Source: Paraconexibacter antarcticus (GTDB lineage Bacteria > Actinomycetota > Thermoleophilia > Solirubrobacterales > Solirubrobacteraceae). From it: 64,000 bases of DNA. The notes beneath the pieces were generated by a model. It did no database searches. It had not been told where the DNA came from and saw only the letters and a program-made list of their open reading frames with translations. Numbering within the stretch: position 1 is the stretch's first letter; every line of letters starts with the position of its first letter. The stretch is from contig NZ_CP098502.1 of NCBI RefSeq assembly GCF_024220175.1, positions 4,902,514 to 4,966,513 on the forward strand, written 5' to 3'. This document shows positions 9,546 to 62,399 of the stretch, one piece after another. A program made the position numbers and the translations under genes.

Positions 9546-10223
9546 GTGGCCGCGCGACCGCTCGAGGAGATCGTCGATCCGGGCTGGGCGCAGGCCCTCG
9601 CGCCCGTGGCGGACCGCATCGCGGCGATGGGGGACTTCCTCCGCGCCGAGGTCGCCGCCGGGCGCCCGTACCTCCCGGCCGGGAAGGACGTCCTGCGCGC
9701 GTTCGCCGAGCCCTTCGCCGCCGCGCGGGTCCTCGTCGTCGGTCAGGACCCGTACCCGACGCCGGGCCACGCGGTCGGCCTGAGCTTCTCCGTCGCGCCC
9801 GACGTGCGGCCGATCCCGAAGTCGCTCGTGAACATCTACAAGGAGTACGAGGAGGACCTCGGGCTGCCGCGGCCGTCCAGCGGAGACCTGTCGCCGTGGG
9901 CCCGGCAGGGCGTCGTCCTCCTCAACCGCTCGCTGACCGTCCGCCCCGGCGAGCCGAACTCGCACCAGGGGCGTGGCTGGGAGGCGGTGACCGAGCAGGC
10001 GATCCGCGCGCTCGCCGATCGCCGGGGGCCGTTGGTCGCGATCCTCTGGGGGCGCAACGCGCGCAACCTCAAGCCGCTGCTGGGCGACGTGCCGGCGATC
10101 GAGTCCGCGCACCCCAGCCCGCTCTCGGCGCACAACGGGTTCTTCGGGTCGCGCCCGTTCACCCGCGCGAACGCGCTGCTCGCCGAGCAGGGCGGCGAGC
10201 CGATCGACTGGCGCCTGCCCTAG
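9546..10223 (+). CDS. ung: Uracil-DNA glycosylase, family 1
   Basis: The 225-aa enzyme removes uracil from DNA in base excision repair. It carries the water-activating motif ([20 protein letters not shown]), the second catalytic loop ([20 protein letters not shown]) and the [22 protein letters not shown] segment typical of Ung. The start is GTG at 9546, which gives the usual family length. The stop TAG at 10221-10223 is part of the CTAG that borders the IS982 element, so the insertion left the coding sequence intact. Before insertion the gene would have converged directly with the gene now at 11222-11752. Confidence 0.95.
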
Positions 10224-11221
10224 ATGGTTCGTTCCACGGATCGGTCAGGCGTAGTAGGCAGTGAGGTTGCGTGGTGGGCGGCCGAGGCGTTCGTTGAGAG
10301 CGATCGCGGCGGTGAGAGCGAGGAACTTGGCGGCCAGGCGGGTGCGGAGCGTGTGGAGCTCGCGGGCGCGGTGGTCCTCGAGGTTGAGCATGTCTTTGCA
10401 TGTCCAGAAGATCGATTCCACGCATTGCCGGATCGGGGCCAGGTGCGGCTCTTTGCCGGCCTCGTCCTTGCGTCGGGGGCGGACGATCGTGGCGCCGAGC
10501 GCGGAGGCTTGGGCGTGGAAGTCGCGGCCGGAGTAGCCCTTGTCGCCGATGACGGTGACCGGGCCGTTGCGGTGGCAGCGGGCGAGCATGTCCAGCGCGA
10601 CGTCTCGTTCGCCCGTTTTCGGGGAGGTCAGGGCAAGGGCGCGTGGAGTGCCGTCGGTCGCGAACAGGCCGTGCAGGCGGAAGCCCCAGAAGAAGCGGGA
10701 ATGGCTGGCGCAGTAGCCGTACTCCGCGGCGTTGCCCAGGGCGCTGCGGCGCGTCGTTTCGACCGAGCGACCGCATTCGACCGGTGTGCTGTCGACCACG
10801 AGCAGGTCGTCGTCAAAGCCGTTGGTGTGGCGGGCGAACTCGAGGATCAGCGCTTCGATTTTGTCCGACAGGCGCTGGCGGCGTTTGACGAAACCCGGGC
10901 GCTTGGGCAGTCGCGGGAACAGGTGCCCCAAGCGATGCGGTGCCATCGCCCAGAACTGCTCGTCAGAGCTGATCCGCAGTACCTGCTGAGCCACGCTCAA
11001 CGTGACGACCTCCGCGTCGGTCAAGATCCGTTTGGCGTTCTTGCCCTTCGCAGGCAGGAGATCGTCGCAGGTGCAGTAAACAGCGATCAGCAGCAGGTCG
11101 AGGTCGGCGTCCATCGAGGCCCCCAGGGTCGGCGTTGGCGAGATAGCACCGCCGACTTCGACCTGCCTGCTTATGTCACCTGCCTACCCGACTCCTCCGC
11201 CCCCGCCGTGGAACGAACCAT
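10224..11221 (-). mobile_element. IS982-family insertion sequence, copy 1
   Basis: The 998-bp element is bounded by perfect 16-bp terminal inverted repeats (ATGGTTCGTTCCACGG at 10224-10239, and its complement at 11206-11221). CTAG stands immediately outside both ends (10220-10223 and 11222-11225). This is either a 4-bp target duplication at a palindromic CTAG or a 20-bp inverted repeat that includes it. It holds one transposase gene on the minus strand. The second copy at 36278-37275 appears identical by eye. The left CTAG supplies the stop of ung, and the right CTAG supplies the stop of the gene at 11222-11752. Confidence 0.93.
10245..11114 (-). CDS. IS982-family DDE transposase (copy 1)
   Basis: The 289-aa transposase catalyses cut-and-paste movement of the surrounding element. 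It shows the IS982-type core: LVVDSTPVECGRS with the first Asp, EYGYCASHSRFFWGFRLHGLF, VIGDKGYSG with the second Asp, and IRQCVESIFWTCKDMLNLE with the catalytic Glu. The N-terminal LTDAEVVTLSVAQQVL segment also fits the family. The reading frame is complete and undisturbed, so the copy looks active. Its protein sequence is the same as that of copy 2. Confidence 0.93.
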   Translation of the reverse strand: MDADLDLLLIAVYCTCDDLLPAKGKNAKRILTDAEVVTLSVAQQVLRISSDEQFWAMAPHRLGHLFPRLPKRPGFVKRRQRLSDKIEALILEFARHTNGFDDDLLVVDSTPVECGRSVETTRRSALGNAAEYGYCASHSRFFWGFRLHGLFATDGTPRALALTSPKTGERDVALDMLARCHRNGPVTVIGDKGYSGRDFHAQASALGATIVRPRRKDEAGKEPHLAPIRQCVESIFWTCKDMLNLEDHRARELHTLRTRLAAKFLALTAAIALNERLGRPPRNLTAYYA

Positions 11222-19339: not shown

Positions 19340-19454
19340 GCAATCGGAATGCAGCTGCTTGCGCTGAGCGACAGTGGCTGCATTGCGGTTGCTCCGCCTT
19401 CGGGATGCAGCCGGTCAGCCTCAGCCTCAGCCTGACTGGCCGCATTGCGGTTGC
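19340..19454. repeat. Nested inverted-repeat cluster between convergent genes
   Basis: Four related motifs of about 19 bp lie here: 19340-19358 (GCAATCGGAATGCAGCTGC), 19374-19392 in inverse orientation (GTGGCTGCATTGCGGTTGC), 19401-19418 (GGGATGCAGCCGGTCAG) and 19433-19454 inverse (TGACTGGCCGCATTGCGGTTGC). The first and second pair with each other, as do the third and fourth, giving two tandem imperfect hairpins. The second hairpin encloses AGCCTC repeats. The cluster fills the gap between the converging Nudix and GlcD-like genes. It could act as a terminator, but its modular repeat structure resembles REP-type elements. Confidence 0.6.
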
Positions 19455-26721: not shown

Positions 26722-27804
26722 TCACTCGATCTGGCCGATCGCCCACGTGAATCCGGCGAGCTCGCGCGCTGCGGCGACGGCGATGATCGTGCGGCGTTTG
26801 CCGCGCTGCTCAAGGCGGTTCCATGTGCGATACAGACGCCGCTGCGCGGTCCAGGCGATCGCGACCGCTTCGGCGGGCTGCCCGTCGTGGCGATCGCTCA
26901 GCGCCTTGGTGACCCGCGGCGCCTTGCGGTAGTGCCAGGCAGCCTCGACGAGCAGCCGGCGCGCGTGCCCGGAACCGGTCTTCGTGATCGAGCCGAGGCG
27001 GCGACTTGAGCCGGTGGTGTGCTCCGAAGGGACCAGGCCGATGTAGCTCATGAGCTGCTCGGCCCGGGCGAACCGGGCGAAGTCGCCGACCTCCGAGCAC
27101 AGCCCGGCGGCGGTGAGCGTGTCGATCCCGCGAAGGCACCGCAGCCGGGCGACCTGCACGCCCCACGGTGAGCTCGGAAGCATCCTCGTGATCTGCGCCT
27201 CGAGCTGATCGCGGCGATGCACGAGCACGTCGGCCGCGCCGCGCAGGTCCAGCAGCGTCGCCTGCGCCGCGGGCCACACGAGGTCGACCTGATCCAGCCA
27301 GTCACGGTGGCGCTGCGTCCATGCCTTGCCGTCATCGAAGCGATGGTCGTGACGCAGCAGCAGCTTCGACAACCGGTGGCGGGCACGCATCAGGTCCACC
27401 CGCACGGCCTCGCGCGCCCGGATCAGATCGCGCAGCGCCTCCTCCTCGTGGCCCGGCACCCGCACCGGATGCAGCTTCCCCGCCCAGAGCAAACGCACGA
27501 GCAGTTCGGCGTCACGACGATCAGTCTTCACCCGGTCACCCGACGCCCGCGGGATCTTGCTCGGCGCCGCGACCACGCACGACACCTGCCGCGCCGCGAG
27601 CTCCCGCGCCAACCCGTACCCGGTCGGCCCGGCCTCATACGCCGCCCGCACCGGCCTGGGCAGTGCGGCGCACAACCTGGCCGCCTCACGCACGTCACCG
27701 CGCAACGCGAACCACTGAAGCTCGCCGCTCTCAGCATCGAGCACCGCCGCCACGATCTTCGCGGCGTGTACGTCCAGACCAACGAGGCTTCTAGCCTTCG
27801 TCAT
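26722..27804 (-). CDS. IS110-family transposase (DEDD + catalytic Ser)
   Basis: The 360-aa recombinase has a RuvC-like N-terminal domain with Asp in SLVGLDVHAAKIVAAVLD, Glu in AYEAGPTGYGLAREL and the DRRDAELLVRLL pair. It has a C-terminal transposase_20 domain (LRCLRGIDTLTAAGLCSEVGDFARFARAEQLMSYIGLVPSEHTTGSSRRLGSITKTGSGHARRLLVEAAW) with the conserved serine region. ATG 27804 is chosen for its GGAGGAG site and because MTKARSLVGLDV is the usual family start. The frame is complete, so the element may be functional. Confidence 0.93.
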   Translation of the reverse strand: MTKARSLVGLDVHAAKIVAAVLDAESGELQWFALRGDVREAARLCAALPRPVRAAYEAGPTGYGLARELAARQVSCVVAAPSKIPRASGDRVKTDRRDAELLVRLLWAGKLHPVRVPGHEEEALRDLIRAREAVRVDLMRARHRLSKLLLRHDHRFDDGKAWTQRHRDWLDQVDLVWPAAQATLLDLRGAADVLVHRRDQLEAQITRMLPSSPWGVQVARLRCLRGIDTLTAAGLCSEVGDFARFARAEQLMSYIGLVPSEHTTGSSRRLGSITKTGSGHARRLLVEAAWHYRKAPRVTKALSDRHDGQPAEAVAIAWTAQRRLYRTWNRLEQRGKRRTIIAVAAARELAGFTWAIGQIE

Positions 27805-28111
27805 GGCCGGTCTCCTCCTCTGTGGTTGTGGGCCGCTGCGCGGCTGCAACCGCACAGCTCAAACGTCACCCCACGACCCTTCGCGAGGGACCGGCCACTT
27901 CTACCGCCCGCCTCAGACAGACGACTCAGAACCACCGCCGCCAGCGACGGCCCGATCCATATGGTCTAGCCGAACGCCCTGACTGCGTCGGGTTCGGTCC
28001 GGAGGAGCGCCGGCCGGGTTGCCGATGCGGTTTTCGACCGCGAACGTCGATCTTCCCCCGCCCCGGGGGCGATCTTCGGCGTTCGTCGCGCCGAAGGGCG
28101 TCCGCCCCCAT

Positions 28112-28158
28112 CGGCGTGCGGCCTGGTGGGGCATATACCCCCACGAGACCACACGCCG
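28112..28158 (+). repeat. 47-bp palindromic repeat, copy A
   Basis: The arms begin CGGCGTGCGG and end ACACGCCG around a GGGGCATATACCCCC centre; 17 of the first 20 bases pair with the other arm. It matches copy C (62353-62399) at 40 of 47 positions in the same orientation. Confidence 0.75.
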
Positions 28159-28203
28159 CGCGGAACGCCGAGGAGGGCCGGCGCGGCCGCACCGCCAAGG
28201 CGC

Positions 28204-28248
28204 CCCACCCGTCCCACCCGCCCCACCCGACCCACCCGACCCACCCGC
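28204..28248. repeat. Five tandem 9-bp CCCACCCGN repeats
   Basis: CCCACCCG recurs at 28204, 28213, 28222, 28231 and 28240 with one variable base between units. The minus strand therefore has ten runs of three G, enough for a G-quadruplex. It lies between the two 47-bp palindromes. Confidence 0.8.
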
Positions 28249-28301
28249 CGTAGCCGGTCGCCGTAGACGCCGGCACCCCAGCGAGCTCGCCCACGCTGCC
28301 G

Positions 28302-28348
28302 CGGCGTGCGGCGAAGTGGGGGGATATGTCCCACGAGACCGCACGCCG
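28302..28348 (-). repeat. 47-bp palindromic repeat, copy B (inverted)
   Basis: Read on the minus strand it matches copy C at 43 of 47 positions, including the CATATCCCCCCAC core. It is inverted relative to copy A, 143 bp away. Confidence 0.78.
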
Positions 28349-34682: not shown

Positions 34683-36277
34683 GGACGGACGCCCGGCACG
34701 CGGCGGCGCCGCGCCGCGCGGGCGTGATCACGCGTGCGGCCGTGCTCGCCGCCGTCGCGCTCGGCGCCCCCGGCGCGGCGACGGCGGCCGCCGCGACCGG
34801 GATGGCCGGCACGGGCCCGCCGCCACCCACCCCTGCCGCGTGCGCCGCCGTCCGCCCGCCGCGCACCGTGGCGCCGATCCTCGCGCCCGCCCGCCGGGGC
34901 AGCGGCCACGGCCCCCGGGTCTTCGCGATGCAGCTCGAGCAGGACCCCGCGAACGTACAGACCTACGCCGCTTTCCGCCGGAAGACCGAGTGCGATCTGC
35001 GCGCCTTCGTCGTCCCCCACCTGAGCCGCACCCGGCCGAACGTCGTCGTCTTCGACGAAGACATCGGGCTCATGACGATCGGCACCGGCTCCCGCGGCGC
35101 GGCGGCGCGGGCCCTGCTCGCGAACCCCCTCGGCCACCCGGGCTGCGAGGGGCAGGGCTTCCCCTGCGCGACGCTCGCGGCGCTCGCGCTCGTCGGCGCC
35201 GGCTACGTCCGCCAGCAGGCGTTCTACGCGCTGCGCTTCGGCGGCGTCCCCGGGCTGAGCGACACGTTCGTCGCCGCGACCGACACGTTCGCCCGCGGAT
35301 GGATGCAGACGTTCTCCGACCTCGCGCGGCGCTACCGCGTCTACCTCGCGGGCTCGGCCGACCAGCCGGACTTCGCCGCCTCCTCGGCGCCGGGCGACAT
35401 CGACGCGCTCGCCGACCCGGACCTCCCGCGGCCGCAGGAGGTCTACGTCGCGACCTCGCGGGCGGTGCACAACAAGGTCTTCGTGTGGGGCCCGCGGGAC
35501 GTGCGCACGGGCGGCCCGCCCATGCTCCGCAACGTCGTCGCCGCCAACGAGAAGGTGCCGCTGACCCCGATCGAGCAGGCCCTCGGGCTGACCCCCGGGC
35601 CCGCGACCGGCCCCGCCGCCGTCGCGAACCTGCGGCCCTTCCGCATCCCGCACACCCGGGCCCGGCTCGGCTTCGCGACGAGCCTGCCGGCCTTCGTCTA
35701 CGGGACGGTCGCGCCGGGCGCGGATCCGTGCGCCGATGTATCGAGGACGTACATGCGCTGCCTCGACCACCTCGGCGCCAACGTCGTCCTCCAGGACGAG
35801 GCGAACCCCGGCCGCTGGACCGGCGCCGACGGGGACGGCGTGGAGCAGTGGCAGCCGCTCTCGTGGATGACCTCGACCGCGCGCGCCGTCACCGACCCGT
35901 CCGTCCGCTTCGCCTACGACGTCACGCCGATGCTCGTCGGCAACCTGGCCGACCTCGCCTTCGACGGGCAGAGCGCGATCACCCAGCGCGGGCTCCGGGG
36001 CCGCGGATGCCACTACGTCGGCAACGGGACGTGGACGGCGGGCGAGGACCGGCCCGACCTGCAGGACGAGGCGGGCGACCACCCGGAGTTCCTCGCGCTC
36101 GCGCCCTGGGTGACCGCCGACGCGCCGCGCGCCGCCCTGCGCGCGACCGGCGCCCGCCTCGCGCCCGGCTCCGGCGACGTCCACGAGGGCGACTACGTCG
36201 AGACGGCGCTCGTCGCGGACCTCCCGTTCCCGCCCGACCCGCGGCGCGCCGGCTGCCGCACCCGGCCCGCCCCCTAG
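34679..36277 (+). CDS. Exported nitrilase-superfamily-like protein
   Basis: The 532-aa protein begins with a signal-like segment (RAAVLAAVALGAPGAATAAAA) and is coupled to the amine oxidase. Features that suggest a carbon-nitrogen hydrolase fold are RVFAMQLEQDPANVQTYAAFRRKTECDLRAFV, PNVVVFDEDIGLMTIG (candidate Glu), AVHNKVFVWGPRD (candidate Lys) and YMRCLDHLGANVVLQDEANPGRW (candidate Cys). I am not certain the three align as a true Glu-Lys-Cys triad. If correct, it could cleave an amide or nitrile related to the amine oxidase substrate. The stop TAG (36275-36277) is part of the CTAG bordering IS982 copy 2, so the frame ends exactly at the insertion. Confidence 0.6.
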   Translation: MRTDARHAAAPRRAGVITRAAVLAAVALGAPGAATAAAATGMAGTGPPPPTPAACAAVRPPRTVAPILAPARRGSGHGPRVFAMQLEQDPANVQTYAAFRRKTECDLRAFVVPHLSRTRPNVVVFDEDIGLMTIGTGSRGAAARALLANPLGHPGCEGQGFPCATLAALALVGAGYVRQQAFYALRFGGVPGLSDTFVAATDTFARGWMQTFSDLARRYRVYLAGSADQPDFAASSAPGDIDALADPDLPRPQEVYVATSRAVHNKVFVWGPRDVRTGGPPMLRNVVAANEKVPLTPIEQALGLTPGPATGPAAVANLRPFRIPHTRARLGFATSLPAFVYGTVAPGADPCADVSRTYMRCLDHLGANVVLQDEANPGRWTGADGDGVEQWQPLSWMTSTARAVTDPSVRFAYDVTPMLVGNLADLAFDGQSAITQRGLRGRGCHYVGNGTWTAGEDRPDLQDEAGDHPEFLALAPWVTADAPRAALRATGARLAPGSGDVHEGDYVETALVADLPFPPDPRRAGCRTRPAP

Positions 36278-37275
36278 ATGGTTCGTTCCACGGATCGGTC
36301 AGGCGTAGTAGGCAGTGAGGTTGCGTGGTGGGCGGCCGAGGCGTTCGTTGAGAGCGATCGCGGCGGTGAGAGCGAGGAACTTGGCGGCCAGGCGGGTGCG
36401 GAGCGTGTGGAGCTCGCGGGCGCGGTGGTCCTCGAGGTTGAGCATGTCTTTGCATGTCCAGAAGATCGATTCCACGCATTGCCGGATCGGGGCCAGGTGC
36501 GGCTCTTTGCCGGCCTCGTCCTTGCGTCGGGGGCGGACGATCGTGGCGCCGAGCGCGGAGGCTTGGGCGTGGAAGTCGCGGCCGGAGTAGCCCTTGTCGC
36601 CGATGACGGTGACCGGGCCGTTGCGGTGGCAGCGGGCGAGCATGTCCAGCGCGACGTCTCGTTCGCCCGTTTTCGGGGAGGTCAGGGCAAGGGCGCGTGG
36701 AGTGCCGTCGGTCGCGAACAGGCCGTGCAGGCGGAAGCCCCAGAAGAAGCGGGAATGGCTGGCGCAGTAGCCGTACTCCGCGGCGTTGCCCAGGGCGCTG
36801 CGGCGCGTCGTTTCGACCGAGCGACCGCATTCGACCGGTGTGCTGTCGACCACGAGCAGGTCGTCGTCAAAGCCGTTGGTGTGGCGGGCGAACTCGAGGA
36901 TCAGCGCTTCGATTTTGTCCGACAGGCGCTGGCGGCGTTTGACGAAACCCGGGCGCTTGGGCAGTCGCGGGAACAGGTGCCCCAAGCGATGCGGTGCCAT
37001 CGCCCAGAACTGCTCGTCAGAGCTGATCCGCAGTACCTGCTGAGCCACGCTCAACGTGACGACCTCCGCGTCGGTCAAGATCCGTTTGGCGTTCTTGCCC
37101 TTCGCAGGCAGGAGATCGTCGCAGGTGCAGTAAACAGCGATCAGCAGCAGGTCGAGGTCGGCGTCCATCGAGGCCCCCAGGGTCGGCGTTGGCGAGATAG
37201 CACCGCCGACTTCGACCTGCCTGCTTATGTCACCTGCCTACCCGACTCCTCCGCCCCCGCCGTGGAACGAACCAT
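36278..37275 (-). mobile_element. IS982-family insertion sequence, copy 2
   Basis: The 998-bp element appears identical to copy 1 (offset 26,054 bp), with the same 16-bp inverted repeats (36278-36293 and 37260-37275). CTAG again stands on both sides (36274-36277 and 37276-37279). Both copies have the same orientation. Here the left CTAG contains the stop of the nitrilase-like gene. The right end lies 14 bp before the MOSC gene start, so the element separates two genes that were about 10 bp apart before insertion. Confidence 0.93.
36299..37168 (-). CDS. IS982-family DDE transposase (copy 2)
   Basis: The 289-aa product is identical to the transposase of copy 1, with the same DDE core (VVDSTPVECGRS, VIGDKGYSG, QCVESIFWTCKDML). 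The intact frame and identity between copies point to recent transposition. Confidence 0.93.
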   Translation of the reverse strand: MDADLDLLLIAVYCTCDDLLPAKGKNAKRILTDAEVVTLSVAQQVLRISSDEQFWAMAPHRLGHLFPRLPKRPGFVKRRQRLSDKIEALILEFARHTNGFDDDLLVVDSTPVECGRSVETTRRSALGNAAEYGYCASHSRFFWGFRLHGLFATDGTPRALALTSPKTGERDVALDMLARCHRNGPVTVIGDKGYSGRDFHAQASALGATIVRPRRKDEAGKEPHLAPIRQCVESIFWTCKDMLNLEDHRARELHTLRTRLAAKFLALTAAIALNERLGRPPRNLTAYYA

Positions 37276-62352: not shown

Positions 62353-62399
62353 CGGCGTGCGGTCTCGTGGGTCATATCCCCCCACTCGACCGCACGCCG
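62353..62399 (+). repeat. 47-bp palindromic repeat, copy C
   Basis: The third copy of the dispersed palindrome lies in the 98-bp gap between the membrane protein and glycosyltransferase genes. Arms are CGGCGTGCGG and CCGCACGCCG around GTGGGTCATATCCCCCCAC. Confidence 0.78.

Follow-up and report, generated by a model that had tools for sequence, protein, structure and literature searches.

Dispersed palindromes of Paraconexibacter antarcticus as probable solo end sequences of an AbiEi-DUF559 nuclease-gene element

Three copies of a 47-bp palindrome occur in the window (the whole stretch of 64,000 nucleotides of Paraconexibacter antarcticus DNA that was analysed), and they are probably solo copies of a sequence that serves a nuclease-gene element as its recognition site and as its ends, and that would have been spread by cleavage and repair. 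The window covers bases 4902514-4966513 of the source genome (G000; 5.14 Mb, single contig), and the genome holds 55 distinct copies of the same palindrome family (pattern searches gave 46, then more), namely 50 solo copies and 5 copies that flank two nuclease genes. Sequence comparison and statistics support this reading through the pairing of genes with palindromes, the lineage-specific match between the two, the solo dispersal, the extragenic placement and the absence from congeners. Since the cognate nuclease genes lie outside the window, the main point was invisible to the first-pass annotation, which was limited to the window.

It had been noted in that annotation that two 47-bp copies, A and B, lie near groESL with 143 bp between them, and both coordinates and spacer are as described; the two copies carry CGGCGTGCGG arms and an ATAT core. 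The arm pattern gives five matches in the window (three copies, two of them on both strands) against a mean of 0.02 in shuffled sequences, which confirms that the window palindromes are real. Within each copy, 15-17 of 23 positions pair. The opposite orientation of A and B holds with respect to the asymmetric family consensus, but it is weakly meaningful (35/47 identical positions in direct and 38/47 in inverted comparison), because each copy comes close to being self-complementary. The proposal that A and B pair with each other as a working unit is not supported, since most copies of the family are single, and the covariation of the arms is not above that of shuffled sequences. An RNA element was likewise rejected, there being no Rfam match in the window and no covariation of the arms. 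Two other features of the window are as follows. An IS110-type transposase ORF, named from its own sequence, lies on the minus strand at 26722-27855, between an ASCH-domain gene and copy A, and it is missing at the same place in the congeners G001, G004 and G005. In addition, there is a perfect direct repeat of 300 nt (10218-10517 and 36272-36571), probably an insertion sequence, whose end sequence ctagatggttcgttccacggat also adjoins a palindrome copy at locus L035.

Table 1. Palindrome copies located in the 64-kb window (position 1 is its first base).
Feature	Position	Strand	Relation to family or gene
Copy A, solo 47-bp palindrome, window family	28112-28158	minus	2 mismatches to core consensus
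Copy B, solo 47-bp palindrome, window family	28302-28348	plus	no mismatch to core consensus
Copy C, third solo copy, window family	62353-62399	minus	43/47 identical to B when inverted
Probable solo copy of the L129 family (nuclease gene at G000:C1:2009291)	19342-19396		82% identity over 55 nt to the 5′ flank of the gene, E 2e-10

The 47-bp consensus of the window family is CGGCGTGCGGYCNNGTGGGGNNATATNNCCCACNNGRCCGCACGCCG, which hardly varies in its outer arms and in the inner GTGGG/CCCAC, while positions 11, 13 and 14 and their partners 37, 35 and 34 vary independently (for 11/37: T-A 15, T-G 15, C-A 7 and C-G 7). Measures of arm covariation in the family equal shuffled values, that is to say, within the source genome it is the sequence of the arms that is conserved rather than base pairing as such. 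A double-stranded binding site is therefore favoured over an RNA hairpin, and judged by its sequence the palindrome looks like a double-stranded operator.

In the source genome, two pairs of window-family palindromes enclose homologous AbiEi-DUF559 genes. A covariance model of the window family, searched in 232 genomes of the order, gave two weak matches elsewhere and no more, one of which, in G104, a genome from another genus of the same family, pointed to a palindrome family of that genome's own. This family is 51 bp long, has 20 copies and follows the same plan with different arms (GGAGGAGTGGCGyyyTGGGGGTGATATGCACCCCCArrrCGCCACTCCTCC), and an inverted pair of its palindromes, 0.95 kb apart, encloses one gene homologous to the two genes of the source genome. 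All three proteins start at an ATG inside the central ATATG of the palindrome, the two window-family proteins beginning with MTPLRR and MPPPRR. The N-terminal half of the nuclease is AbiEi-like, as matched by the AbiEi models of PADLOC (E 2e-15 to 6e-27) and by Pfam AbiEi_4 (weakly in the window family), and the C-terminal part is a DUF559 domain, which is related to the solved endonuclease-like protein 3hrl. Across 92 proteins, conservation is 98-100% at the residues matching E203, D231, E242, D244, H249 and D258 of the first window-family protein, which suggests that the predicted nuclease active site is intact. In paired units, the 3′ palindrome lies at about -60 to +30 nt from the stop codon, a position that leaves no room for a second gene, so there is no adjacent AbiEii toxin gene. 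At locus L138 (G000:C1:1907333), the nuclease gene is flanked on both sides by tandem arrays of several palindromes and not by single ones. The window subfamily has a third protein, with about 65% identity, at locus L131 (G000:C1:5007641); the palindromes at both ends are diverged and partly decayed there, and it is possibly a dying element.

A full element would measure about 1 kb and consist of palindrome, gene and palindrome, with the gene often starting at the centre of the 5′ palindrome, and the gene product is an AbiEi-like module (winged helix and second domain) fused to a DUF559/Vsr-type nuclease. It has been reported that AbiEi binds, as two monomers, a pair of 23-bp inverted repeats separated by 3 bp and acts as the repressor of its own promoter (PMC7319586), and the palindrome of 47-51 bp would be of the size of such a double site. 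By analogy with AbiEi at its operator, two monomers of the nuclease would each bind one arm of ~23 bp in double-stranded form, and this binding would also autoregulate the nuclease gene. The nuclease domains would then come together in the middle of the palindrome and nick or cut it there; through repair from a second copy, the palindrome would spread within the genome, with or without the gene. From these sequences we infer binding, cleavage, copying and a route of the copy to its new site, the AbiEi-like half reading the palindrome and the nuclease half acting at its centre; cleavage and repair would be the simplest link between a sequence-specific nuclease and scattered sites of its own. 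In G104, some arm positions appear by inspection to change together (G-C, T-A, C-G), which would favour a folded single strand, not a duplex, as the substrate there; such a strand may also be the substrate in other families.

As to placement, 48 of the 55 copies lie outside called genes; the non-coding share of the sampled genome, by the same simple gene caller, is 19%. Of the 48 extragenic copies, 29 stand between convergent genes, a setting that accounts for 22% of intergenic bases (p 1.5e-8). This distribution bears on an explanation that we consider unlikely, in which the palindromes are operators only, the AbiEi-like protein is a repressor or a nucleoid-type binder, and the scattered copies are a regulon or titration sites, so that nothing moves. 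The known autoregulation by AbiEi proteins through paired 23-bp inverted repeats (PMC7319586), a 5′ palindrome that covers the start of the nuclease gene, and arms that behave like double-stranded half-sites would all suit such operators. However, most copies are found at gene ends, the majority of the extragenic ones between convergent genes, and not at promoters; a palindrome copy also lies 3′ of the nuclease gene's stop codon, the nuclease-type residues are conserved, and the copies are genome-specific.

The association of gene and palindrome extends beyond the window family. Nuclease genes of this kind are found in 44 of 61 genomes of the order, and there are 10 DUF559 genes in the source genome and 8 in G104, many of them flanked by matching palindromes of about 45-57 bp whose sequence differs between the nuclease gene lineages. 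With a cut-off set above the maximum of 475 mismatched pairs, 33 of 95 full-length AbiEi-DUF559 genes from the order have matched 5′ and 3′ flanks. The figure for ordinary genes, taken from two of the genomes after removal of one that was itself a nuclease gene, is 7 of 210 (Fisher 7e-13). About two thirds of the 95 genes are without a matched pair at this cut-off (decayed, or never had one). Elsewhere in the phylum, 5 of 12 further genes have matched flanks, one of them with a perfect 50-bp palindrome at its start. An in-frame ATG occupies the centre of the palindrome in 13 of the 27 pairs found at a gene start, and the palindromes are mostly 43-56 bp long (median near 49). When flanks are compared between loci, similarity is found for 7 of 18 protein pairs with at least 60% identity, versus 11 of 3970 pairs below 50%. 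Every lineage of the nuclease carries a palindrome of its own, and palindromes resemble each other where the proteins do.

Solo copies are found for several of these families as well. In 464 kb of the source genome, scattered solo copies belong to the families L126, L138, L141 and L142 and to the window family, and the families L129 and L134 probably have solo copies there too. In 400 kb of G029, four solo copies of the L227 palindrome are present, and queries from the one genome against the other returned weak, low-complexity matches only. One palindrome family in G104 is also scattered as solo copies.

With 55 copies in the source genome and none of the core pattern in the seven congeners searched, the earlier suggestion of a mobile or selected element is supported; further copies do exist, and the copies are not a set of unrelated terminators. 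In the groESL region of the congeners G001, G004 and G005, the ASCH-domain gene is kept beside CIRCE-groES and there is no palindrome, which supports a gain in the lineage of the source genome. A base-exact empty site at groESL was not found, the congener alignment being poor and the sequences too diverged. Target-site duplication was rejected, with 4 cases against 4.5 expected, and insertion into pre-existing hairpins was rejected, as the complementarity of the flanks equals that of shuffled sequences. The window-family nuclease has no match on plasmids or phages; the palindrome is absent from the viral contigs searched, and viral relatives of the nuclease were not found.

A MITE-like spread by another transposase, with the nuclease genes as passengers between two copies, is in our judgement quite unlikely. 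Dispersal and absence from congeners alone do not name the enzyme, and the source genome carries other transposases, such as the IS110-type gene mentioned above; but the pairing of flanks is specific to the nuclease gene family, each lineage has its own palindrome whose similarity tracks that of the protein, and there is neither a Y1 transposase in the source genome nor a target-site duplication. Bidirectional transcription terminators conserved as hairpins are very unlikely, for although the copies are GC-rich inverted repeats, enriched between convergent genes and often 10-30 nt past stop codons, and may act secondarily in transcription termination, it is sequence and not pairing that is kept (covariation equals shuffles), the listed copies with their flanks have no T run, the congeners lack palindromes at groESL, and at the nuclease gene this palindrome extends across the start codon.

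Mobilisation by the cognate nuclease would most likely amount to a REP/RAYT-like system built on a different enzyme. As in REP/RAYT systems (GTAG REPs; PMC3116915, PMC3733652), short extragenic palindromes occur in tens of copies with a genome-specific sequence, and a genome holds several classes of them, the repeats of each class flanking a cognate gene. The REP/RAYT enzyme, however, is a Y1 (HUH) transposase, whereas an AbiEi-DUF559 nuclease takes its place here, and the palindromes here are longer, at about 43-59 bp, and frequently include the start codon. No GTAG or CGTC tag is present in the consensus or flanks of the window family, and a search for the Y1/HUH transposase (PF01797) gave no match in the source genome, the same search being positive in 5 of 14 control genomes. 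Because the defining enzyme and tag are absent, the system is not classed as a member of REP/RAYT. For CGTC-tagged and untagged REP families, dispersed palindromes have been reported for which no associated transposase gene was found (PMC3733652); the palindromes described here differ from them in sequence, have no tag and come with a candidate cognate enzyme.

The AbiE type IV toxin-antitoxin system (PMC7319586, PMC3985639) resembles the present one in its AbiEi-like part, here the N-terminal half, and in an operator of 23+3+23 bp, which is close to the 47-51 bp found here. The AbiEi-like half is fused here to a nuclease, however, a further site stands at the 3′ end and others are dispersed over the genome, and no AbiEii nucleotidyltransferase toxin gene lies between the palindromes; true plasmid AbiE pairs look different. 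It has also been reported that neither AbiEi nor its homologue from M. tuberculosis binds the sites of the other (PMC7319586). The EDxHD/Vsr homing endonucleases, among which I-Bth0305I is reported to act as a dimer on a target of nearly 60 bp (PMC3943268), appear by inspection to resemble the nuclease proteins in the order of their conserved E, D, H and D residues, and the homing-endonuclease match of the nuclease proteins in PADLOC is weak. In contrast to these enzymes, the genes described here are outside introns and inteins, show no sign of homing to an allelic site and encode an AbiEi-like recognition module. The MTES_1575-type Vsr domain has been described in the literature in another context. 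No description of DUF559 together with palindromes, AbiEi or mobility was found in the open-access literature searched, and an earlier description elsewhere is possible. The system is ranked as a new kind, because no known system that was found pairs such an enzyme with dispersed palindromes; by a stricter view, it could be assigned to the REP-like kind.

For the Actinomycetota at large, we give an even chance to the existence of a class of intragenomically mobile palindromes, each driven by its own AbiEi-type nuclease, which would read the palindrome as an operator and spread it by cleavage and repair; it would be a non-HUH, REP-like system with co-evolving protein-palindrome pairs. A concrete candidate class of enzyme is thereby offered for one group of palindromic repeats, among which some families, such as the CGTC REPs, are without a known mobilising enzyme (PMC3733652), and genes annotated merely as DUF559 or AbiEi-domain are given a context. 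The protein-palindrome pairs, several of them in a single genome, form a natural series for studying the co-evolution of DNA recognition, and the proteins may be new nucleases whose recognition sites are long.
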